A program made the translations under genes and the position numbers. This document shows, piece after piece, positions 33,093-45,551 of a DNA stretch of 58,423 bases; positions within the stretch are counted from its first letter, which is position 1; each line of letters opens with the position of its first letter. Under the pieces are notes generated by a model that saw only the letters and a list, made by a program, of their open reading frames with translations, did not search any database and had not been told where the DNA came from. The DNA lies in the IMG/VR virus record IMGVR_UViG_3300027822_000013, positions 1 to 58,423 of that record; one strand, given 5' to 3'. The DNA is from a virus.

Positions 33093-33306
33093 CATCATTT
33101 CCTTTCACAGGGTTCATCCATTCCAAGGCACTTTCCAGTGTTTCAATTAATTTCCTGGCTGCTTCTTGAGACATAGAAAAACTATTATCCACACCCACCT
33201 CTGGATGTAGGTGTCTCATTTTTACCATAGGTCCATATAGGGTATCATCTTTGCGGCTTACGTCCAGAAAGCTGTGTCCACTACTCAGTACTATTCTTTT
33301 TGTCAT
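33049..33306 (-). CDS. Unknown small protein
   Basis: 85 residues. MTKRIVLSSGHSFLDVSRKDDTLYGPMVKMRHLHP then a helix (SMSQEAARKLIETLESALEWM). Overlaps the neighbours at both ends (about 26 and 44 bases). No known domain. Confidence 0.55.
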   Translation of the reverse strand: MTKRIVLSSGHSFLDVSRKDDTLYGPMVKMRHLHPEVGVDNSFSMSQEAARKLIETLESALEWMNPVKGNDDEVRTEPKSVLPGD

Positions 33307-33781
33307 CCTCTTTTCCTTTCCCTAAGTTGTAGAGATTCAGGGACCTAATCTTACCCCCACTGTAAACATCCCTCATACAGGCAATCTGAACAGCCCAACC
33401 AGCTTGGTCGTGTTCAACAGGGGCGTCTTTCATCCCTGTAAAAGCATCCATGGCTGCTAGAGCAAATTGATATCCAGAACCAAGTGCTGCTGGGGCCTGG
33501 ATTTCGATAGGATGGCCGTTTGTGAATTCTCTCATAATCCCTGAATCCCAAACCCAGAATACAAATTTTACATCAGAGGGTACGGGATAGGTTGAGGGTA
33601 GCAGTTCGGTACTTAGGTACCAATCTATGCAAGGCTGAAAATAGGAAATATCGCCAGCAGAAGCAAACACACTCCCCCCTACCACCTTGATTTTCTCAAA
33701 TTCCATCTCTTCAATGGTGCCGTTACTATGAATCAACCCATCAGCAGCCAAGTTCTGTCCGTCCCAAGCAATAGTAGTCAT
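33281..33781 (-). CDS. Ntn-hydrolase, HslV/proteasome-beta-like
   Basis: 166 residues from ATG 33781 (ATGA overlap with the previous gene). MTTIAWDGQNLAADGLIHSNGT is the proteasome/HslV opening, where removal of Met exposes Thr2 as candidate nucleophile; KIKVVGGSVFASAGDISYFQPCIDWY and ALGSGYQFALAAMDAFTGMKDAPVEHDQAGWAVQIACMRDVYSGGKIRSL are the characteristic helix and strand blocks. Phage copies of this fold are known, function unclear; they might cleave a host protein or act in virion maturation. It lacks an obvious partner ATPase (HslU-like) in the window. Confidence 0.8.
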   Translation of the reverse strand: MTTIAWDGQNLAADGLIHSNGTIEEMEFEKIKVVGGSVFASAGDISYFQPCIDWYLSTELLPSTYPVPSDVKFVFWVWDSGIMREFTNGHPIEIQAPAALGSGYQFALAAMDAFTGMKDAPVEHDQAGWAVQIACMRDVYSGGKIRSLNLYNLGKGKEDDKKNSTE

Positions 33782-34053
33782 TTCACTTCCTCTTTCCATT
33801 TAAACCACAACAACCGTACCTTACCGGGTACAAGCTCAACCCATTGTTCCCCCTCAATCCAATCTGCCCAACAGGAAATCCAGCGGAACCAGTTTTCAGA
33901 AATGTCTGGAGGTATTCCATTCACCCCTGTATCGGGAATTGGACCTGTCCATTCATCAGGGCGGTGCATCCAATCGCCCTCACAATGAAGGTTCACGCAT
34001 TCCCATGTACAAGTAGTCTCGTTGTATAATTCCAGCCCCACACTTCGGGTCAT
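33778..34053 (-). CDS. Unknown Trp-rich protein
   Basis: 91 residues, tryptophan-rich (about ten Trp): ETTCTWECVNLHCEGDWMHRPDEWTGPIPD, then SENWFRWISCWADWIEGEQWVELV. Contains several Cys (CTWECVNLHC) possibly binding metal. No known domain. Overlaps its two neighbours by four bases each. Confidence 0.6.
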   Translation of the reverse strand: MTRSVGLELYNETTCTWECVNLHCEGDWMHRPDEWTGPIPDTGVNGIPPDISENWFRWISCWADWIEGEQWVELVPGKVRLLWFKWKEEVK

Positions 34054-35317: not shown

Positions 35318-37206
35318 TCTATCTCTCCCCAACTAGGTCCAGTTTCAACATCTACTTTGCTGGGAACCTCAAGAGGTACACACTCCACCATTATATCGGC
35401 CAGCATCTTTGCATCCTTAGGGGAACCACTCATGTTGATTTCATCGTGTACTTGTAATTGTATTTCCAACCCAGCTTTGTCGGCTTCAACCATGGCCTGT
35501 TTTGTTTGGTCGGCACTACTACCTTGTATAAGTCGGTTAAGAGCTTTATGTGTCCAATCAAACCCACCCCCGTTAATTTGAGGAAACCTGCATTTGCGAC
35601 CCAGGATAGTTCGTATGAACCCAACACGCTTTGCTTGTGTTTCACACTTCTTTGATAACCTCTTTATGTAAGGTGCGTGGTGATTAAAAGTGTCCAGAAT
35701 GTTTTGTGCTTCGGGACCGGCCACCTCATAAACTTTTTCAAATTTCCCACTGCCTTGCCTCCTCATAGCTGTGGGCAATCCAAGGTTTCGTGCTAGTTTA
35801 GCTCCTCCCATTCCATAACAAAGGCCCAAGAAAATATCTTTCGCATAGGTTCTTTTTAGTCCTGTTAGATCAGCCATAAATTGGTGGTTGTCTAGATCAG
35901 GGTTTTCAACATAGGCTTTTACAGCTTTATCAGCCCCACCACACCTAGCCAGATAGGCATAATGGGTGGTCATACGAGGTTCTTGCTGTGAATAGTCGTT
36001 ACAAATCCACTCCCCGTGATCCGGCCTATATATACCGCGCCACTGCTTGGCGTAGGCTCCACGGGAAGGTTGTTGCTGTAGGTTGGGCTGTTCTGAACTT
36101 AACCTCCCAAAGCCTGCGCCTCCTAAGCTGCCGTCATCCTTCTGTTTCCTAAGCTGGTTGAATAAGCAATGAATACGGCCATCCACCATTCTATCCATTA
36201 TGGATTGTACAAAGGTGGTACGCAATTTGTTGTATTGACGAGCCACCAAAATCTGTTTACAAACGGGGTGATCACTTCCTTCAAGAATTGCTTTGTCAAT
36301 CTTGGGTTTCCCGGTCGGGGTTTCTCCCAAGGAAAAATTGATGGCTTTCATGACTGGTACCAGTTTGGCTGCTTTGTATACATCCCCTTCAGCCACCATC
36401 ACCCCACTCAATCGTTTTATTTCGTGCAAGGCAGCTCTTTCGGTTTCCAGTGCCATGTTTGATATTTGGGCTAATCGGTCCTGATCAATCAGCACTCCCC
36501 TCTGCCTCATCTTTAAAAGAACCGGCATAACAGCAGATTCAAGCTCGTATATTTGCCCTAATTCCTGTTTGTCGATTTCTCTTTCTTGTTTCCTCAAAAT
36601 TTGTAGAGGTAACGAAGCATCTTCTTCAGCATAAGGTCCTACATATTCTGCCGGCAAAGTCCATATTTTTCCTTTCCAGCTTCGGGTCTTTAGGTTGATA
36701 CCGTAAGATACACAGGCCTCTTTCATCAAATTCTCTTCTTTACCAGAAAACCCCCACCGTTCCGCAATTGCTTGAAGAGAGTACGATTTATGAAGTTCAC
36801 TGATTAGGGGATCAGCAATCATAACATCAAGAAATCTAGATATACCAGTAAACCGTACACTATAAGCATCAAGCCAATCAAGATCATACTGTAAATTTGC
36901 CCCACATATTATTCCTTCATAGTTTTTGGCTTGATGTCGAAGGTAGTTCATCACGTTCTCTTCAGGAAGGTTCCCCCCTCCCTTATGACCTGTGGGAAGG
37001 TAAAATGAGGGACCATCCTCAATCGCAAAGGATATTCCCGCAATGTGACTATTACCCCGGCGTGCCCCCGGCCCCATTGTAGTTAGGTCAGGATCATTGG
37101 TTTCAGTGTCTATCCCAATCCGCTTAATTCCCTTCCAATCAGGAAGGGAATTAAGGTCAGGGGCAACCCAATCGGAATCAGGTTTAAAGAGAGGCAATTG
37201 ATCCAT
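35314..37206 (-). CDS. DNA polymerase, family A, with 3'-5' exonuclease
   Basis: 630 residues. Exonuclease motifs: IGIDTETND (Asp33, Glu35), NLQYDLDWL (Asp108) and YAEEDAS (Asp196). Polymerase motifs: A, NDYSQQEPRM (Asp404; canonical IELR replaced by QEPR), B, RTYAKDIFLGLCYGMG (Arg452, Lys456, Leu460, Tyr464), C, QVHDEINM (Asp588, Glu589). No 5'-3' exonuclease domain. Leu460 corresponds to E. coli Pol I Phe762, so this is a Leu762-type phage polymerase. It is the replicative polymerase of the phage. If thymine is replaced by a modified base, it must accept that triphosphate or the modification is post-replicative. Confidence 0.93.
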   Translation of the reverse strand: MDQLPLFKPDSDWVAPDLNSLPDWKGIKRIGIDTETNDPDLTTMGPGARRGNSHIAGISFAIEDGPSFYLPTGHKGGGNLPEENVMNYLRHQAKNYEGIICGANLQYDLDWLDAYSVRFTGISRFLDVMIADPLISELHKSYSLQAIAERWGFSGKEENLMKEACVSYGINLKTRSWKGKIWTLPAEYVGPYAEEDASLPLQILRKQEREIDKQELGQIYELESAVMPVLLKMRQRGVLIDQDRLAQISNMALETERAALHEIKRLSGVMVAEGDVYKAAKLVPVMKAINFSLGETPTGKPKIDKAILEGSDHPVCKQILVARQYNKLRTTFVQSIMDRMVDGRIHCLFNQLRKQKDDGSLGGAGFGRLSSEQPNLQQQPSRGAYAKQWRGIYRPDHGEWICNDYSQQEPRMTTHYAYLARCGGADKAVKAYVENPDLDNHQFMADLTGLKRTYAKDIFLGLCYGMGGAKLARNLGLPTAMRRQGSGKFEKVYEVAGPEAQNILDTFNHHAPYIKRLSKKCETQAKRVGFIRTILGRKCRFPQINGGGFDWTHKALNRLIQGSSADQTKQAMVEADKAGLEIQLQVHDEINMSGSPKDAKMLADIMVECVPLEVPSKVDVETGPSWGEIE

Positions 37207-37666
37207 CAGACCACCCTTTTAGTTCCAAATCAAGCAGAGACCGAAACAAGTTCAACACCAAACCTGGCTTCACGTTAAACACATCCCATTTATTGACATT
37301 AAATTCTGCTGCTTGTTCAAGTAATTCCCAAGCCATGAACTGACTGTCCACAGTCATGCCTTCTGCATAGTCCAGGGGTTCATGAAGTTCATGAAGTACC
37401 AAGATTAGATACCTCCTCAAATCCCGTACATCATCCCTGATACCTTCGTCACGGTCATCATTACCCATAGCCGCCAACAAAGATCGCTGTTGGGTTTGCT
37501 GGCTAATCCGGTCCCACTTTCTAGCCAACATCATAAAGGCCCCTCCCCCTCCCCTCTTTTTCCAACTGTCCCCGTAGTCTTCAGCTTTTTTGATCAAAAC
37601 TTGAACATCGTTCTTTACAATATTCAAGGCAAGATCACCACTGATGCGGCTTAATCGAGTATCCAT
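37184..37666 (-). CDS. DUF1599-like (nucleotide modification associated domain 1)
   Basis: 160 residues. VLIKKAEDYGDSWKKRGGGGAFMMLARKWDRI matches the K-x-x-D-Y-G-x-x-W ... L-x-x-K-x-x-R pattern of the DUF1599 family, named Nmad1 because it occurs beside DNA-base modification genes; GIRDDVRDLRRYLILVLHEL follows. The family is helical and distantly like MazG-type nucleotide pyrophosphohydrolases, but catalysis is unproven. Adjacent to the polymerase and the nucleotidase and thymidylate synthase homologues, it is likely involved in shaping the nucleotide pool. Confidence 0.7.
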   Translation of the reverse strand: MDTRLSRISGDLALNIVKNDVQVLIKKAEDYGDSWKKRGGGGAFMMLARKWDRISQQTQQRSLLAAMGNDDRDEGIRDDVRDLRRYLILVLHELHEPLDYAEGMTVDSQFMAWELLEQAAEFNVNKWDVFNVKPGLVLNLFRSLLDLELKGWSDGSIASL

Positions 37667-37680
37667 TTCATTTTCCTGTT

Positions 37681-38202
37681 TTAATTAGAAGCTTCACAAA
37701 CGGGGTAATACAGAGTTTCCCAAACTCGATATGAGGGTGTTTTATCCACAGCACAGTTTTTGACAAACCAACCATCAATTTTTATCAGAAATTCCATGGC
37801 TTTAGGCCACGACATTTCGTATTGTTCAATTGCCCAGATACCAAGTTCCAGGATGTCAATTTGCTTGAGTATAAACTCCCATCCCGGTTCGAGATTGACG
37901 TGTTGAATCCACCCGTTATCAGAGTTGATCTTATGTTCGATATTTTTGATCATTCTGGCAAACTCAGGGTTGTCCCATTTAACATGAGTTGGTATATCAC
38001 CCAAATCGTATTCGGCTTGGTCGTGGTATAACAACGATAGGATGACATCACGAGGGGCTTGTGGGTAAAGTTCCAGAAGGATACAAATTGCATCGTAACT
38101 GTGTTTACCAACAGTGTAGTCCGGCCCCAAGTGGGTGTGGATGTGGCAGCGTCTTACGTTGCTGCCGTTCCTTAGTCTCCTGATCTTATTTACCTGTTCC
38201 AT
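37681..38202 (-). CDS. HD-domain 5'-deoxynucleotidase, YfbR-like
   Basis: 173 residues from ATG 38202 (GGGGTGGAAT before it; 38217 is an alternative). KHSYDAICILLEL, then LLYHDQAEYDLGDIPTHVK with H-D-x-x-E-x-x-x-G-D-(I/L)-P-T, the exact pattern of YfbR and related HD phosphohydrolases that remove the 5'-phosphate from deoxynucleoside monophosphates. Overlaps the thymidylate synthase homologue by 17 bases, so the two are coupled. In phages with replaced bases, such enzymes remove the normal nucleotide (compare DatZ for dATP and the dTMP-ase of SPO1-type phages). Here dTMP or dUMP are the plausible substrates. Confidence 0.82.
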   Translation of the reverse strand: MEQVNKIRRLRNGSNVRRCHIHTHLGPDYTVGKHSYDAICILLELYPQAPRDVILSLLYHDQAEYDLGDIPTHVKWDNPEFARMIKNIEHKINSDNGWIQHVNLEPGWEFILKQIDILELGIWAIEQYEMSWPKAMEFLIKIDGWFVKNCAVDKTPSYRVWETLYYPVCEASN

Positions 38203-39214
38203 ATTCCACCCCATCATCCTTAACCCGATTGTAAGCTTCTTGCCGGCGTCTCAACCATTCAGTACAAGCTTGCCGCCAATCCAGTGCCTTAATCGTTGAT
38301 GCCCAATACATAGCTTCATTGAAGTTTTTTGCCTTGTAGAACTTATGGGACATCTCCATAGGCTGTATTACTTGTTCAAAAAATGGTGTTGCCCACTCAC
38401 GAGGGGAAGGGTTGTCCATTGCCCACTTAAAGAAGTTTTGTAAATCAAGGTCCCATTGTGGATTTCCACTACCAAGCGGGAAGTGGGTATAATCTTCTTT
38501 TTCATAGGGGGTTCCCTTAAACACATTCACTGCCGGGTGGGCTTGTTTCTCTAACACGTCTACATAGGCGTGATAGTTATTACTGATTTGACGATAACGT
38601 CCTATTTTTACCCCGATTTGTTCAGACATGTATTCATGGAGAACAGATAGATGGACTGCGTTGGCCCCATAAGCCCCCCACACAATGTCGTTTGAGCGAT
38701 TGCAGACTGTCATGTCTAGTCGATCATCAGCTGTGATAGAGAAATAAATATGGGTATTACAGGGGGTGTCTTTTCCCTCGTATTTCAAATCAATCCAGGA
38801 ATCCCAAATCCCAAGAACAACCCGGCGGTCATTCGGGTCTTTTCTCAGTTTGTCTATAATCACTTGGATTTGGTCATAGTCAAATCTCCACCGCCAACGA
38901 CTTCCATAAGCCCCATTAAAGATTTCCCCATCATCAGAAAAGGTTTTCATCCTTTTGACGTAACGAGAAACGAATTCAACGTCTTCACGGCCCCCCAACA
39001 TCCAGAGACTTTCCATCAAATGGAAAAAGGGGTTAGCATCCCGTTTTTCATGGAATATAACTCTCTCCAAGGGTTGGTCATATACTGTAGTAACGGGTTC
39101 TGGTGCCACCACCACTTCCCCGGCCCGGCTCTTTCGTCTATCCCCTACTTGCCATAGGAGTTTAACCCCAACTGGTAAGGCTTCATGTACGTTTCTAACT
39201 CTAAGAACTATCAT
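38186..39214 (-). CDS. Thymidylate synthase family, probable dUMP hydroxymethylase
   Basis: 342 residues. EIFNGAYGSRWR (about 97-108), RRVVLGIWDSW, catalytic DTPCNTHIYFSI (Cys152), LDMTVCNRSNDIVWGAYGANAVHLS (Arg173, Ser174, Asp176, Asn185), and SNNYHAYVDV define the fold. Typical TS has P-C-H and Y-Q-R-S-x-D; here P-C-N and C-N-R-S-N-D, as in phage hydroxymethylases. Asn185 in the base-contacting position favours uracil over cytosine, so the product would be hmdUMP or dTMP. Sitting in a hypermodification gene cluster, dUMP hydroxymethylase is preferred. Confidence 0.85.
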   Translation of the reverse strand: MIVLRVRNVHEALPVGVKLLWQVGDRRKSRAGEVVVAPEPVTTVYDQPLERVIFHEKRDANPFFHLMESLWMLGGREDVEFVSRYVKRMKTFSDDGEIFNGAYGSRWRWRFDYDQIQVIIDKLRKDPNDRRVVLGIWDSWIDLKYEGKDTPCNTHIYFSITADDRLDMTVCNRSNDIVWGAYGANAVHLSVLHEYMSEQIGVKIGRYRQISNNYHAYVDVLEKQAHPAVNVFKGTPYEKEDYTHFPLGSGNPQWDLDLQNFFKWAMDNPSPREWATPFFEQVIQPMEMSHKFYKAKNFNEAMYWASTIKALDWRQACTEWLRRRQEAYNRVKDDGVEYGTGK

Positions 39215-39497
39215 CTTGGTTTTCTTTCATTTCGTTAAATATGGGGCCATCAATACAGCAGCCACGACCCAACTTGGGCATTTCAACCACCACATGTGAT
39301 ACCTGAAATTTACCATCCTGGTGTGTAAACTCAAACACTCCTTCAGGCTCTAAACCTAAAGCCATCATCAAAGGCCACTGTTGTCTTTGGAACTGTAAAG
39401 CCAATTCGACAGTTTCAAATAGAGTATTGGTGGCTGGAAAAAACACCACATTATCATTGTTGTCTTTCCATTTGGGGGTGTACCCGGTTTCATCCAT
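39201..39497 (-). CDS. Unknown small protein
   Basis: 98 residues, MDETGYTPKWKDNNDNVVFF, then a helix ETVELALQFQRQQWPLMMALGLEPEG and FEFTHQDGKFQVSHVVVEMP. Small alpha/beta fold, no family recognised. Overlaps the thymidylate synthase homologue start by 14 bases. Confidence 0.6.
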   Translation of the reverse strand: MDETGYTPKWKDNNDNVVFFPATNTLFETVELALQFQRQQWPLMMALGLEPEGVFEFTHQDGKFQVSHVVVEMPKLGRGCCIDGPIFNEMKENQDDSS

Positions 39498-39511
39498 TTT
39501 TCATTTCCTTA

Positions 39512-39616
39512 TTAATAGGTGTACCAGACCAGGTAAACACCCCAGCCAGCTACAGCCATAGCTGCTGCTAGTTTAAATATCACCATAAAAGCGGCCCAAT
39601 TAGACATAGGGGTCAT
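39512..39616 (-). CDS. Tiny membrane protein
   Basis: 34 residues, my translation MTPMSNWAAFMVIFKLAAAM, then AVAGWGVYLVWYTY. GAGGAAACACAAAC before ATG 39616. One hydrophobic helix. Inside the modification cluster; function unknown. Confidence 0.45.
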   Translation of the reverse strand: MTPMSNWAAFMVIFKLAAAMAVAGWGVYLVWYTY

Positions 39617-39666
39617 GTTTGTGTTTCCTCATCAAGTTTTAGTTGTTCTTGTATTAGGGTCAACCG

Positions 39667-39810
39667 TTACCATATTTCGTGTCGAACTTGGTTTACAGCA
39701 GCTTTATTCAATCCCAACAAACGACGGTAACGAGCTAAATCTGTGATTTCCCATTCTAACTTCATTCTTTCCTGTTTGGTTAATTGAACAGGTTTGGGTT
39801 GTGGTACCAT
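39667..39810 (-). CDS. Small unknown protein
   Basis: 47 residues, my translation MVPQPKPVQLTKQERMKLEW, EITDLARYRRLLGLNKAAVN and QVRHEIW. Basic, helical. The ATG follows the stop codon of the next upstream gene (TAA-ATG). Possibly a small DNA- or protein-binding peptide of the cluster; no family recognised. Confidence 0.5.
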   Translation of the reverse strand: MVPQPKPVQLTKQERMKLEWEITDLARYRRLLGLNKAAVNQVRHEIW

Positions 39811-40020
39811 TTAACTGTTTTCCCTGGCATTGTCCATAAGCTCTTTGAATATAAGTTCAACTTTTGGACCCACGTGGGTTTCCACGAATTCATCCATGAT
39901 GCTATTTAACAGTTCAACAGACGTTTTAATTGGTGCCCCGGCCCGATCATATTCCACCATCGCATTATGGCAAATATCCTCCAACTTTTCCTCTAACGTC
40001 ATGTCAATGTTTCCTTCCAT
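39811..40020 (-). CDS. Small unknown protein
   Basis: 69 residues, helical and acidic (MTLEEKLEDICHNAMVEYDRAGAPIKTSVELLNSIMDEF). Overlaps the 310-residue helical-domain gene by 22 bases. Unknown. Confidence 0.55.
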   Translation of the reverse strand: MEGNIDMTLEEKLEDICHNAMVEYDRAGAPIKTSVELLNSIMDEFVETHVGPKVELIFKELMDNARENS

Positions 40021-40931
40021 CTACTCCTTGGGCGTCCTTCCCCTAATTTAGCACGTTGCCATTTATCATATTCACACAGACTATGTTCAATATCTCTCAT
40101 TTCCAAAGCAGGAACCCATAGAGCAATCTTATAGACTGATTGCGCCAGTAGTTCTTGCATCTCTTCCATCAAACTGTCTATCCTCAAATTTGCGTTGATA
40201 GGACGCCCGTGGATACGATTAAGACCCCGCCTTGCTCCAGGACCGGGATTTGCCCAGGTCATGATATCGGGGGCCTCATTCAGATATCTGGTGTGTCGCA
40301 TATCCGTCACCACCTCATAAGAGGTAAACGGCCCCCACCCGTAAAACGAAGCAATATAGGTCCAGGTTTCCTCTTGTGTTTCACATGCCTCAATGACGTG
40401 AGTATGCTTTTTTATCTTGGGCCAGAACTGACCAATCAGTTTACATGCTACGTAATACTGTTTGTCATCATAAAAATCAGCAGCCCTGTCGCTCTCAGCC
40501 CGAACCATATAGGCCCCAGTATAGAGTTTCAATCTTTCCTTTTTTATGCGGTTCATCTCCTTGGCCATTTCAACAGGTTTGAAATTCTTATCGTATGGCC
40601 AGGTTTTTGGGTCCTCCATCAACCGTTCAAGAGTGGGAGGCCAATTAATGGACCTTGCTATGGCCAACATAAACCACAAATAGGGGTGATCCTTGAATGG
40701 TTCCCTGATGTGATTTTTGATCCAAACAGTGACCGTGTCCAACTCTCGAAAAACATTACAGAAACGGTACTGCTGTAGCTCCTTATCCTTGGTATACAGA
40801 CCAGGATAAGGGGAGGATGCCGTAGGCTTATTTCTCATATATCCTTCAGGGATTTCGTGACCCAAGGCCAACTCCCGTCTTAGATATATGGCGTGGCGCT
40901 CATTGATCCAATCGAATAGTGTGTGGGTCAT
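39999..40931 (-). CDS. 5-hmdU DNA kinase helical-domain or AADT-type protein (thymidine hypermodification)
   Basis: 310 residues. LQQYRFCNVFRELDTVTVWIKNHIRE (about residues 53-77) is the hallmark of the helical domain found with hydroxymethyl-uracil DNA kinases; later blocks are YGWGPFTSYEVVTDMRHTRYLNEAPD (a helix-hairpin-helix-like core) and WANPGPGARRGLNRIHGRP, followed by the WVPALEMRDIEHSLCEYDKW segment. Helical-domain proteins and amino acid:DNA transferases (aGPT-Pplase clades) share this glycosylase-like fold, and I cannot separate the two by eye; I lean to the kinase helical partner because it is coupled by four bases to the P-loop kinase gene. It likely acts on hmdU in DNA. Confidence 0.75.
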   Translation of the reverse strand: MTHTLFDWINERHAIYLRRELALGHEIPEGYMRNKPTASSPYPGLYTKDKELQQYRFCNVFRELDTVTVWIKNHIREPFKDHPYLWFMLAIARSINWPPTLERLMEDPKTWPYDKNFKPVEMAKEMNRIKKERLKLYTGAYMVRAESDRAADFYDDKQYYVACKLIGQFWPKIKKHTHVIEACETQEETWTYIASFYGWGPFTSYEVVTDMRHTRYLNEAPDIMTWANPGPGARRGLNRIHGRPINANLRIDSLMEEMQELLAQSVYKIALWVPALEMRDIEHSLCEYDKWQRAKLGEGRPRSRWKETLT

Positions 40932-41539
40932 CTTGGAAGGTACTTTCTGATGATGGTGCCCATAGATTTTTCGGGGGCTGTGTGGTCAACTATTTCTACT
41001 TTCTCGCCAGTAAATTTCAACTTGTCTCGAATACCGTTGATGGTTTTGTACTTCGCTGTAATCTGATCCGACTTTACGGGTTTGCCCCCGTTGCGATGTT
41101 GTACCCGTTCAAGACAGGTTTCAATTGGGGTGTCAAGAAATGCCCAAACAAAGGTATGGCCCTCTGCCTGCATCATCTGGGAAAACTCTAACCAAGGTTT
41201 ATAGGTGGTGCCGGCAATGATACCTTCTGCAAACACCACGTCATGTTGCTGAACTGCTGATCTCACACCTTCTTTCATATGGCGTTGGGTACTGATTCGA
41301 TCCATCCCCCCGGAATAAGTCAGGTTGGAATAGTGACCCACCGTACAAATCTCGATAGGCCAGTCAGTATAGAGAGGGGAGTTACTTGAGTCATTGGTAT
41401 TGCCTACCACCCGACCCATTTTTCCCCTATTATTCTCAAACTCCAACAACACTTCTTGTCTTGTGGGGTCTATATAATGACTGACCAGGGTGGATTTCCC
41501 ACTGCCGTTAGTACCTCTGATGTTGATGATTAAACTCAT
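40928..41539 (-). CDS. P-loop kinase, probable 5-hmdU DNA kinase subunit
   Basis: 203 residues. Walker A NIRGTNGSGKSTLVSHYI (residues about 6-23); DVVFAEGIIAGTTYKPWLEF (Walker B-like D-x-x-x-x-E-G); FVWAFLDTPIETCLERVQHRNGGKP, the lid. Similar to phage P-loop kinases that phosphorylate hydroxymethyl-dU in DNA to make a good leaving group for later substitution. Tight overlaps with both neighbours support a shared complex. Confidence 0.85.
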   Translation of the reverse strand: MSLIINIRGTNGSGKSTLVSHYIDPTRQEVLLEFENNRGKMGRVVGNTNDSSNSPLYTDWPIEICTVGHYSNLTYSGGMDRISTQRHMKEGVRSAVQQHDVVFAEGIIAGTTYKPWLEFSQMMQAEGHTFVWAFLDTPIETCLERVQHRNGGKPVKSDQITAKYKTINGIRDKLKFTGEKVEIVDHTAPEKSMGTIIRKYLPR

Positions 41540-42414
41540 ATTCTTTTCATCTCCCTTAAAAAATCATTAGCAGAATTATTTTCTTCAGCCCAATCACTTA
41601 AGCCATGACTGATCTCGTCAATGTCGTTGTTGAATGGGTAGTGGCCGTTACAGTGGGATTTCCACTTACACAGAATAGTCTCTATTTCCTGTATGTTGAC
41701 CCCTCGATCAAATACAGGGGGAGCTAGGTGGTTGGAAAATATCACCTCAAGGTGGGAAATTGCGAGTTCAATTCCCCGCTCTTTCTCCCCCGGTCTCCAA
41801 TCAAGATAGTTTGAGGATTTGAGGCTGGGGTCCACCCCCTCTTTAAGCTGCAAATACAGTCTCAATGCTGCTTCCTTGGGGTCTTTAAACATCATCACCC
41901 CGTTGGGTTGAAACTCAGTTTCATAACCAAGAACCCGTTCAGCCATGTCTGCGATCTTAAATGCAATCCAAGGACCAAACTGGGGAACTGTTTTGACCCT
42001 TTCTGTAATACCCTCCAATGTGTCAGAAGCGATCATGAAATCCACTGCTGCTTCAGGACGTTTAAACTCCATGGATACGTACTGCAAAGCGTCAAGGGCT
42101 TTTTTACCCCTGAAATGTCGCCGCTCTTTCCCTCTAGGCCATACATCTGATGCCGGGATTTCTACTGGGCACCCCCCTTGTTGGTTCAATACCAAATTAC
42201 AAGCGTGATCAAACCAATACTGGTCTTCAAAATCACTCAACCAGGAAGCAATACCACAATGGTAAAAACACCAATAACCTAACAACCACCGCTTGACCTT
42301 GTCCTGATCCCAGTCTAGTTGAGTCAGTACGTTATAAACTGGGTCAAGGTCTTGTGTCTCAAGAAGTTGAAGCCCGAAATCTTTAATGGATAGTGTTTTG
42401 TAGCGATTATGCAT
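41536..42414 (-). CDS. Amino acid:DNA transferase candidate (aGPT-Pplase-like)
   Basis: 292 residues. Core: LGYWCFYHCGIASWLSDFEDQYWFDHA (about 44-72) and VKTVPQFGPWIAFKIADMAERVLG (about 140-163), a helix-hairpin-helix of the DNA glycosylase type as described for the alpha-glutamyl/putrescinyl thymine pyrophosphorylase families. A PRGKERRHFRGKKALDALQYV linker lies between. These enzymes replace the (pyro)phosphate of activated hmdU in DNA with an amino acid nitrogen or carbon. The genes upstream (radical SAM, PLP) would then remodel that amino acid. Confidence 0.7.
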   Translation of the reverse strand: MHNRYKTLSIKDFGLQLLETQDLDPVYNVLTQLDWDQDKVKRWLLGYWCFYHCGIASWLSDFEDQYWFDHACNLVLNQQGGCPVEIPASDVWPRGKERRHFRGKKALDALQYVSMEFKRPEAAVDFMIASDTLEGITERVKTVPQFGPWIAFKIADMAERVLGYETEFQPNGVMMFKDPKEAALRLYLQLKEGVDPSLKSSNYLDWRPGEKERGIELAISHLEVIFSNHLAPPVFDRGVNIQEIETILCKWKSHCNGHYPFNNDIDEISHGLSDWAEENNSANDFLREMKRI

Positions 42415-43711
42415 TGAACGGGTCCTTGAAGTCTTTGAGCTTTAGAGCATCAGCCTGTTTCATAATTTCTGAACCACAACCCCCAGAACAAGTCAAACAA
42501 CCTGAAGGCTCACACTCCTTAACTTCTTTGAATCTCTGTGCCGCGCCCTGTCTTTTAAACATAGGTACTTTGTGTCCATGACATTGTTCCGAGGTCATGA
42601 ATTCAGGTCCTATAGAAACACACCCCGGATTAGCATCACGGTATTCATAGCATACTGAATAAGTCATCCCTAGTTTGGTGGCGCATTTTTGGTACCGTTT
42701 ATGTCCTTCCAAACGGTATTCCTGTTCAATAGTCCTTTGACCCCCTATATTCTGGGTGAATAGTTCTCTGAAGGCTGCTGATCTATTATCCCCAAATCTT
42801 TGAGTCATACGAGCTACCATGGCTGGTGCCCAAGAATAACCAGCTTCAACGAATTTTACAATCACATGGTTGGTACCACATGAGGCCAGCTTCTCAAATA
42901 GGATTTCAATTTCATCGTGATCCGTAATACCAGCAATTATTGGGTTCACCTGGATTGAAACATAAATCCCTGCTCTACGCAGCTTCTTGATTTCTTCAAA
43001 ATGGTCCTCAAGAGGTAAGGCCCCCGGTGATAGTTTTTCCCAGTCCATTTGCGTAGCACAATTGATTGACTTTTGGGCATAACTGTACTTACTCTGTTGG
43101 AGTAGGGTTATTGCCCAATCAGGATAGGACAACCGGGACAAAAAGAATATCGGCAAACCCTGCTTCACAAATTCACGTGCCGCAGTTTCGGTGTTGTGGT
43201 AATAGTCTTCAATTGGAAGAAATGGATCACTGAATGATGAGAAATATCCGGCTGCTGATGCCTTCAAGGTTCTCAACTGTTTTTTGATCTGTTCTCCATA
43301 GTGCATGGGAACGGTAGTCAGTCCACTACCTCGATAACCCCTGAAACCAGAATTTATGTAACAGAACGCGCATCCTACAGTGCAGTACCCACCGTAAGGT
43401 TCAGTGAGCATCGCTTCTGTGTAGCAAGGTCTATTACGACCCCTAGAGCCTTTATTGCTGGTTTTGGGTTGGTACCATCCCTGAAGCTGTTTTGCCTTGC
43501 CTAAACGAATATGGGGAATGGGGTCAAGAAAGATTTTAACTTCTTTCTTTTCCTTAGCATTTCTAACCATACCAATCTCGCCCGTGCGCCACCTCATATC
43601 CCGGTCGGTGAGTTCATCATAGGTGATTTGAATTGGCCCTAACCCCTCCTTGGGTTCCGGTCTCATGAAATACTTATAACCTTCTTGCTCTAACTGGTTG
43701 TCACCCGTCAT
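42407..43711 (-). CDS. Radical SAM enzyme, SPL-like, with extra Cys cluster
   Basis: 434 residues. EPYGGYCTVGCAFCYINSG gives C110-x3-C114-x2-C117, the [4Fe-4S]-SAM binding triad. FFLSRLSYPDWAI, VSIQVNPIIAGITDHDEI and HVIVKFVEAG are successive strands of the barrel. The C-terminal CEPSGCLTCSGGCGSE holds four more Cys, probably an auxiliary cluster. Related to spore-photoproduct-lyase-like radical SAM proteins, a type that includes radical SAM isomerases in thymidine hypermodification (M6-like phages). Expected to rearrange the amino acid group on the modified base. Confidence 0.85.
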   Translation of the reverse strand: MTGDNQLEQEGYKYFMRPEPKEGLGPIQITYDELTDRDMRWRTGEIGMVRNAKEKKEVKIFLDPIPHIRLGKAKQLQGWYQPKTSNKGSRGRNRPCYTEAMLTEPYGGYCTVGCAFCYINSGFRGYRGSGLTTVPMHYGEQIKKQLRTLKASAAGYFSSFSDPFLPIEDYYHNTETAAREFVKQGLPIFFLSRLSYPDWAITLLQQSKYSYAQKSINCATQMDWEKLSPGALPLEDHFEEIKKLRRAGIYVSIQVNPIIAGITDHDEIEILFEKLASCGTNHVIVKFVEAGYSWAPAMVARMTQRFGDNRSAAFRELFTQNIGGQRTIEQEYRLEGHKRYQKCATKLGMTYSVCYEYRDANPGCVSIGPEFMTSEQCHGHKVPMFKRQGAAQRFKEVKECEPSGCLTCSGGCGSEIMKQADALKLKDFKDPFNA

Positions 43712-43716
43712 CGTTT

Positions 43717-44556
43717 TTATCCTATGTTCCAGAGTAATGTGTTGCGGAAGTCATGAATACCCTTACTCATCCACCATTGAAATGCCTTCAGGTCGTAATA
43801 CTCATTACAAGGCCAGGTCGGTTTGATATCCTTCTGTGAGGCTTTATCTTTGTACTGGTACCCTTCATCAACGATGTGGAGGGGGAGTTCAGTAAGGTCT
43901 GCCCCTACTTTCTGTGAAATGTATTTGTATACAGCATCTTTTGATCTGGAATACCCCAAATGGATGATAACAATTGGGGTCATTCCCTTGGTGTACTTAG
44001 ATTCAAGAATACCCTTGATGACCCCGGACGCTATAGTGGCTGATGAAGAAGGAATCAACACTGACGAAAACGATTTCCCCTTTGAATTAAACCAAGCCTG
44101 GGTTCTCAAATACTCCTTGGCTGTTTCTTCAACTGTCTCATCCAGTTTCAGAGCGTTAGGCATCATGTAAGGTTGGTCATAATAGTCCACCAAGTGTTTC
44201 TTTGCCCCGTGGTATAACACTGCTGATCTTCCAGCAGGAAGTCCCACCAGTTTAGCTCCTAAGTCCTTTGCGTGATCCTGGGGTAGCCTATGACCGGGAT
44301 CGTTTTTATATTCGGGATAAAAGTTGATACACTTCTTACCCAAAACACTACAGGCATGAGCCACGGCCCACCCGGCTTGAGAATGAAAGGTATCTAACAC
44401 CCCAATTGAATGTTCCGGTCTTTTCTTCAGGTGGGCAAATACCCCCCTGGTTTTACTAAAGGGAGGTCCGGGTGTGGGGCTACATAAATCTTCACGCTTT
44501 ACCCATAAACCATAAGCATCAATATAGTCTTCAACAGGGGTGTTATTCTTAATCAT
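43717..44556 (-). CDS. Fold-type II PLP-dependent enzyme (ACC deaminase / cysteine synthase-like)
   Basis: 279 residues. VKREDLCSPTPGPPFSKTRGVFAHL has a Lys35 in the S-K-x-R context of the Schiff-base lysine; FHSQAGWAVAHACSVLGKKCINFYP matches the Asn-helix of tryptophan-synthase-beta-like enzymes (with His/Ser/Gln replacing the usual G-N-H); SVLIPSSSATIASGVIKG resembles the phosphate-binding Gly/Ser loop. A small, divergent member. Position in the modification cluster suggests a role on the amino acid moiety (elimination, replacement or racemisation) rather than a decarboxylase of fold I or III, as reported for other phages. Confidence 0.75.
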   Translation of the reverse strand: MIKNNTPVEDYIDAYGLWVKREDLCSPTPGPPFSKTRGVFAHLKKRPEHSIGVLDTFHSQAGWAVAHACSVLGKKCINFYPEYKNDPGHRLPQDHAKDLGAKLVGLPAGRSAVLYHGAKKHLVDYYDQPYMMPNALKLDETVEETAKEYLRTQAWFNSKGKSFSSVLIPSSSATIASGVIKGILESKYTKGMTPIVIIHLGYSRSKDAVYKYISQKVGADLTELPLHIVDEGYQYKDKASQKDIKPTWPCNEYYDLKAFQWWMSKGIHDFRNTLLWNIG

Positions 44557-45494
44557 ACCAGTTCCAATATTTTTGAGGCACGCAGTTCAATTTCTTTTCT
44601 GTTGGGCTTATCCTTGGCCCAATGAGTGGCGGCATTTAGTACGCCCCAATAGGACTCATCCTTGACTTCATCAGAAATGAGTTCTATGTGGTTTTTACCA
44701 AAACCAACCTTGCCCAGGATTTCACGCCGTTCATCAATTCCTGGGGATAATCTTTTCTTATTGGCTCCCTTCATCTGAGTGACCAGCAGTGGAAATTCGG
44801 CAATGATATCCTTGAAGGTTTCTTCAATTCGGTCACTAGACCTTACGTCAAGCAGATCAGGGATGGACATCTCACCAACAGGGTTTGGACGGGTCAAATG
44901 CATCTTAGTTAGGCCCACCACTGAACTGGGGAAGGTTAGACCGTTTTCACATTCCAGTCTGTAGAAATAGGCATTCATTCCCATCCGGGTTGACCCATCC
45001 TGGGAATTATAAAAATAGAACCCGCCTTGAACCACATCCCCTACCGACACGTCAAAGTTAAGTGAAGGGGATCGAAATGAGCAGGACATTTCCGTTTTAG
45101 AAATAGTATGCTGATCCATGATGAAATTATACTCTTCAACCATAGGACGTATGGTGACCAATAAGTCACTATCCGATACCCGGCGATAAGAGGGACTCAT
45201 TATAGCATAAATTGATGATGTGGTTTCCCTAACCATTACAGCTGTTTCTGATGAGAAAGAGGATAACCAGGTGTTGACGTTATACGCCCAAAGATCACCG
45301 TCAATGAACATGCGCCAATAGTAAGCCGGGGGGATGTTGAGAAGAGAACGAAGGTTGGAATGGGCCGATTTATCAAGCTTCTTACCGTTTAGCTGAAATT
45401 CATTATCAGCCACGAGTTCATTGGCATAAACTATTGTGTCTGTACGGCGTTTCTCAATTCCACGACACTTCTTCATTAAAGTTTCAAATTGCAT
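44553..45494 (-). CDS. DUF932 family protein
   Basis: 313 residues from ATG 45494 after AAGGAT (earlier in-frame start is poorer). LLNIPPAYYWRMFIDGDLWAYNVNTWL, SYRRVSDSDLLVTIRPMV, and FSCSFRSPSLNFDVSVGDVV-like blocks match DUF932, a common phage/plasmid family of unknown function often near DNA-processing genes. YFYRLECENGLTFPSS is the conserved N-G-(L/M) segment. May act in recombination or protection of DNA; not known. Confidence 0.75.
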   Translation of the reverse strand: MQFETLMKKCRGIEKRRTDTIVYANELVADNEFQLNGKKLDKSAHSNLRSLLNIPPAYYWRMFIDGDLWAYNVNTWLSSFSSETAVMVRETTSSIYAIMSPSYRRVSDSDLLVTIRPMVEEYNFIMDQHTISKTEMSCSFRSPSLNFDVSVGDVVQGGFYFYNSQDGSTRMGMNAYFYRLECENGLTFPSSVVGLTKMHLTRPNPVGEMSIPDLLDVRSSDRIEETFKDIIAEFPLLVTQMKGANKKRLSPGIDERREILGKVGFGKNHIELISDEVKDESYWGVLNAATHWAKDKPNRKEIELRASKILELV

Positions 45495-45521
45495 GGTAAA
45501 TATCCTTGTTTCTGATTCCCC

Positions 45522-45551
45522 TCGTTGGTACCTTAACGAAGGCACCAACGA
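45522..45551. other. Intergenic hairpin
   Basis: TCGTTGGT (45522-45529) pairs with ACCAACGA (45544-45551) in the 79-base gap between the DUF932 gene and the reductase gene. No T run on the minus strand. Could be an RNA processing or stability element. Confidence 0.4.

Follow-up and report, generated by a model that had tools for sequence, protein, structure and literature searches.

A divergent M6-type thymidine hypermodification cluster in an uncultivated phage, with 5-NedU as its predicted product

Introduction

Does a fold-type II PLP enzyme in a phage thymidine hypermodification cluster point to a new DNA base, or to one that is already known? The question is raised by a locus in the uncultivated virus record IMGVR_UViG_3300027822_000013, of which the whole stretch analysed, 58,423 bases, is referred to here as the window. 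A first-pass annotation, made from the sequence alone, had described a complete-looking cluster of eight genes and had argued that, because its PLP enzyme is of fold type II, the final base may be new. In Pseudomonas phage M6, only part of the thymines are turned into 5-(2-aminoethyl)uracil, and Lee et al. reportedly described, in NAR in 2021, a PLP-dependent decarboxylase in the M6 pathway. The base found in M6 DNA is 5-NedU, 5-(2-aminoethyl)dU (PMC6449724), and the cassette of the M6-like phage SN1 consists of a hydroxymethylase, Nmad5, aGPT-Pplase1, a nucleotide kinase, a radical SAM protein, a PLP enzyme, and aGPT-Pplase2 (PMC9476957).

Results

All eight open reading frames are present on the minus strand at 37184-44556, with Pfam and PHROG family matches far beyond chance. 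The order of transcription is PLP enzyme, radical SAM protein, transferase, kinase, helical-domain protein, a group of small ORFs, thymidylate synthase (TS)-family enzyme, HD protein, and DUF1599-like protein. A DNA polymerase A gene follows the DUF1599-like gene, and a ribonucleotide reductase gene and a DUF932-like gene lie upstream of the cluster. Four-base overlaps, which had been described as many, occur at three junctions (DUF932/PLP, transferase/kinase, and kinase/helical protein), while the other junctions are overlaps of 8-32 bases or short gaps. The structural genes of the record, including that of a tape measure protein, are of the tailed phage type, and its GC content is 45%. The DUF932-like gene that overlaps the PLP gene by four bases is at 44553-45548; none is annotated in the M6 cassette. 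Elsewhere in the window, at 33281-33799, there is a homologue of HslV-family peptidases (phrog_1040, E=2e-28).

The last three genes to be transcribed include the predicted front end of the pathway. The TS-family protein (38186..39214, 342 aa), a predicted dUMP hydroxymethylase, matches phrog_5131 at E=6e-120 and is 51% identical to M6 gp58. Its hydroxymethylase-like P-C-N motif, which had been noted from the sequence, contains Cys152 and is conserved in M6, Pam3, and Bhz59. The HD-domain protein (37681..38217, 178 aa) is a predicted YfbR-like 5′-deoxynucleotidase, with a match to PF12917 (E=6.5e-8) and 37% identity to M6 gp59 over 124 residues. The third protein (37184..37666, 160 aa) carries a DUF1599/Nmad1 label that is weak taken alone (PF07659, E=0.05; phrog_1485, E=5e-6), and it does not match M6 gp61. 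It does occupy the same slot as Pam3_54, a protein annotated as 'nucleotide modification', to which it is partly similar by eye.

Between the helical-domain and TS-family genes, where M6 and Pam3 have Nmad5, there are small minus-strand ORFs (39201..40020), including one of 98 aa at 39201-39497 and one of 69 aa at 39811-40020, with smaller ones between. Pfam, PHROG, and other profile searches with these ORFs gave no family above noise, and they are perhaps outside the pathway. By eye, a hydrophobic peptide of about 34 aa and a basic peptide of 47 aa can be read among them at 39498-39810. A search for Nmad5 across the whole record did not find it.

The next three genes belong to families named for DNA modification. 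The predicted 5-hmdU DNA kinase (40928..41539, 203 aa) has the P-loop GTNGSGKST, matches PF18748 at E=1e-15, and is 40% identical to M6 gp54. The HMUDK helical-domain protein, aGPT-Pplase1 (39999..40931, 310 aa), has the sequence RFCNVFRELD, matches PF18723 at E=3e-45, and is 48% identical to M6 gp55. The third protein (41536..42414, 292 aa) matches PF18724, the family of amino acid:DNA transferases (ADDT, aGPT-Pplase2), at E=2e-14, as well as phrog_6364 at E=1e-77, and is 42% identical to M6 gp51. All three Pfam matches are above the family cut-off, the result that profile searches of these proteins had been expected to give if they belong to the pathway. Sequence searches of the PDB gave a single weak P-loop match for the kinase and chance matches only for the helical protein. 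Since curated profiles name HMUDK_hel, 5-hmdU DNA kinase, and ADDT, and PHROG matches cover the others, the first-pass list of components was right, apart from the weakness of the DUF1599/Nmad1 label.

Thymidylate synthases, HD nucleotidases, and PLP enzymes also exist in many housekeeping forms, and these genes could in principle serve ordinary nucleotide metabolism and only look like a modification cluster. However, families PF18723, PF18724, and PF18748 lie between them, in an order as in M6, and we regard this explanation as very remote. The same matches and gene order uphold the description of a near-complete thymidine hypermodification cluster, and place it in the M6 type.

We compared the window with M6 by tblastn. 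M6 gp42-gp46, gp51-gp55, gp58-gp59, gp62-gp63, and gp66 are colinear with 32.2-50.4 kb of the window, except for the position of the transferase gene, which follows the radical SAM gene in the window but precedes the PLP gene in M6. Apart from Nmad5 and small genes, the window cluster has the gene set of M6 gp51-gp59 and gp62, and the flanking ribonucleotide reductase and DNA polymerase A are shared as well. The window phage differs from M6 in having no Nmad5 and in having the DUF1599-like protein where M6 has gp61, and it is a divergent relative of the Yuavirus group, with lower GC. The Pseudanabaena cyanophage Pam3 has the order PLP-rSAM-transferase-kinase-helical-TS-HD-DUF1599, as in the window, with PLP enzymes that are 55% identical and radical SAM proteins that are 60% identical. 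Pam3 also carries Nmad5 and additional small genes, however, and its transferase (35%) falls in a different clade. No report of the modified base of Pam3 was found in the literature searched.

The transferase is full-length homologous to a crystallised protein, PDB 8z2m, titled 'Glycinyltransferase' (E=2.8e-62), and PaMx11 gp46 contains the printed sequence of 8z2m, showing that the two are the same protein. In the transferase tree, the M6 and PaMx11 enzymes are in one fork with the window protein (93/93, not starred), and the phiW-14 enzyme lies apart, although the window protein is on a long branch of 1.88. This clade and the full-length homology predict a DNA glycinyltransferase. PaMx11, a Pseudomonas phage of the genus Abidjanvirus that uses the N-glycyl-thymidine/5-NmdU route, has homologues of the window transferase (a 40% identical glycinyltransferase), kinase, helical protein, TS, and HD protein; in place of the radical SAM and PLP enzymes it carries an FAD enzyme and an acetyltransferase. 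An FAD lyase and acetyltransferase of the PaMx11 type were sought in the window and are absent. The Delftia phage phiW-14, which makes alpha-putrescinylthymidine, has only a distant transferase homologue (27%) in a different clade, uses a different amine, and is a far larger phage.

The radical SAM protein (42407..43711, 434 aa) matches phrog_9252 at E=8e-184 and is 60% identical to M6 gp53. The extra Cys cluster reported for it is there: in addition to the CX3CX2C motif (C110-x3-C114-x2-C117), there are C354, C377, C400, C405, C408, and C412, and all of these are conserved across both the window clade and the M6 clade, which are distinguished by a single diagnostic position in this protein. 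A PDB sequence search gave chance matches only. By analogy with M6, the radical SAM protein is predicted to rearrange an N-linked glycine to a C-linked one.

The PLP-dependent enzyme (43717..44556, 279 aa) matches PALP PF00291 at E=8e-9, just over the family cut-off, and phrog_7093, labelled 'threonine dehydratase', at E=4e-67; it is 50% identical to M6 gp52. A phmmer search of the PDB with the single sequence found nothing, but a profile and a predicted structure did find relatives. The AlphaFold model (pLDDT 95.7) is nearest to the D-cysteine desulfhydrase/ACC deaminase fold, with Z 26.8 and rmsd 2.6 over 269 residues, and its matches to both of these enzymes, at Z about 26, agree with the earlier assignment to the fold-type II (ACC-deaminase) class. 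Lys35, in FSKTRG, is invariant in 35 PLP sequences and is the predicted Schiff-base Lys, by likeness to the SFKxRG of IlvA-type enzymes.

Does this fold class predict a new base? The window enzyme and M6 gp52 are of the same family over their full length, with about 70 near-invariant positions in common, and gp52 adjoins the M6 radical SAM gene. Given that M6 DNA contains 5-NedU, the fold class predicts the known base, and the argument from fold type II to a new base is not borne out. We therefore rejected fold class as a predictor of a new base.

Nevertheless, the PLP tree puts the window enzyme in a clade of 27, separate from that of M6 (100/98). Eight positions are diagnostic between the two clades, and these are mostly conservative. 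Position 60, which is Gln in the window enzyme and Lys in the M6 clade, adjoins the invariant Ser59, and a profile alignment sets Ser59 against the serine in ACC deaminase's Ser-Asn substrate loop; this pairing is tentative, because the same alignment places the catalytic Lys inconsistently. Gln60, near the predicted active site, is the only hint in the sequence of another outcome, and because of it the product could yet be a different one. The same assembly line might then end in a base other than 5-NedU, if the PLP enzyme were to eliminate, deaminate, or transaminate, or if the transferase were to use another amino acid. The nearest folds of the PLP model, which are those of eliminases and deaminases, would be in keeping with this, as would Gln60 and the long branch of the transferase. 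However, M6 makes 5-NedU with a PLP enzyme of this family, the transferase groups with those of two phages credited with glycine chemistry, and the radical SAM protein shows no comparable divergence at diagnostic positions. We consider such an outcome unlikely.

Variation among related loci was examined in 57 loci with PLP relatives, drawn from IMG/VR, cultured phages, and the window. Because the loci were chosen by their PLP enzyme, transferases without one, such as that of PaMx11, are outside the sample; within it, all loci that match the transferase profile also have the radical SAM and PLP enzymes. The PLP enzyme, radical SAM protein, transferase, and kinase occur together in 40 of the 57. 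Twelve loci, including the window and Pam3, have the gene order PLP-rSAM-transferase-kinase-helical. Eight others (L010-L012, L016, L018, L021, L030, and L042) have the order HEL-KIN-rSAM-ADDT-PLP, with kinase and helical proteins that match weakly and transferases in a distinct clade (99/82).

The absence of Nmad5 would matter if this protein were a needed accessory, since the pathway might then stop early or be partly inactive, giving mainly hmdU or N-glycyl-thymidine. However, only nine of the 40 comparable loci have an Nmad5 match, and none was found in close relatives of M6, L028 and L034 among them. With 31 of the 40 lacking a match, Nmad5 was not treated as defining the cassette, and it is probably dispensable to the M6-type pathway. 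Furthermore, the core ORFs of the window are all intact and their catalytic motifs are conserved. An early stop thus seems quite improbable.

Outside the window, ten loci (L045 and L047-L055) have PLP relatives (31-43% identity) accompanied by two radical SAM proteins, of which the longer is homologous to the radical SAM protein of the cassette (hhalign probability 100, E=1.5e-42). The two are followed by three conserved proteins and then by a large conserved protein that is a putative DNA polymerase. ADDT, HMUDK_hel, HMUDK, and thymidylate synthase were not detectable in these ten records. For one of the three conserved proteins there is a match to the C-terminal domain of MprF/LPG synthase (PF09924) at E=6e-6, below the cut-off; the structures nearest to its model (pLDDT 83) are those of DUF2156/MprF, aminoacyl-tRNA-dependent transferases, and FemX. 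This MprF/FemX-like protein is found in 36 loci of uncultured viruses, 25 of them with full flanks; of these 25, the long radical SAM protein is present in 24, the short one in 20, and the PLP enzyme in 15. At the limits used, a search of 50,697 phage records gave no relative of either the long radical SAM protein or the MprF/FemX-like protein. Example clusters, beside replication genes, are L045:9962-16659, L048:9995-16275, and L054:8919-15144, and there are others in L067-L102. These observations suggest a separate and so far undescribed modification system, possibly one of DNA hypermodification, which may load amino acids from tRNA.

Discussion

The cluster is, judged from its sequence, real and nearly complete, a divergent example of the known M6-type pathway in an uncultivated relative of the Pseudomonas phages M6 and YuA. 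What this work shows is the gene content and order, the homology, the conservation of catalytic motifs, and the PLP fold. We think it probable, with good confidence, that this cassette, whose phage is a divergent relative of the Yuavirus group with a lower GC content, makes 5-NedU by the following route.

The individual reactions, the glycine substrate, and the final base we infer from work on M6 and PaMx11. The TS-family enzyme would convert dUMP to hydroxymethyl-dUMP, the HD enzyme would probably trim the competing dTMP pool, and the phage polymerase would incorporate hmdU into DNA. Selected hmdU residues would then be phosphorylated by the DNA kinase together with the helical-domain protein, and the transferase would let glycine displace the phosphate. 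Subsequently, the radical SAM enzyme would move the bond from the glycine N to the glycine C-alpha, and the fold-type II PLP enzyme is predicted to decarboxylate the resulting DNA-bound amino acid, to give 5-NedU. The finished base may serve as a shield against restriction enzymes.

The homology of the transferase to 8z2m, its fork with M6 and PaMx11, the absence of the FAD enzyme and acetyltransferase, and the presence of the radical SAM and PLP enzymes make glycine, followed by the radical SAM/PLP route, the best inference. If the donor is glycine, every route to 5-NedU has to form a C–C bond and shed the carboxylate, and a decarboxylation must therefore fall to either the radical SAM or the PLP enzyme. 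In M6, that role is reportedly assigned to the PLP enzyme by Lee et al., and the assignment also rests on this chemical need. Against 5-NedU as the product are the separate PLP clade (100/98), Gln60, the long transferase branch (1.88), and the missing Nmad5. On the basis of the separate clade and Gln60, the last step in this phage might not be that of M6: a deamination or an elimination, for instance, would yield a thymidine derivative not yet described; we give this only an outside chance.

On the reading that we prefer, an M6-type pathway to 5-NedU, the radical SAM protein of such pathways is normally paired with a PLP enzyme of fold type II, and that fold is no sign of new chemistry. The clusters of the L045/L054 type, in which the radical SAM/PLP pair is reused with a different putative amino-acid-loading enzyme, are a better lead for new DNA chemistry than the window cluster. 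The window itself adds a divergent phage of lower GC to those with the M6-type pathway.
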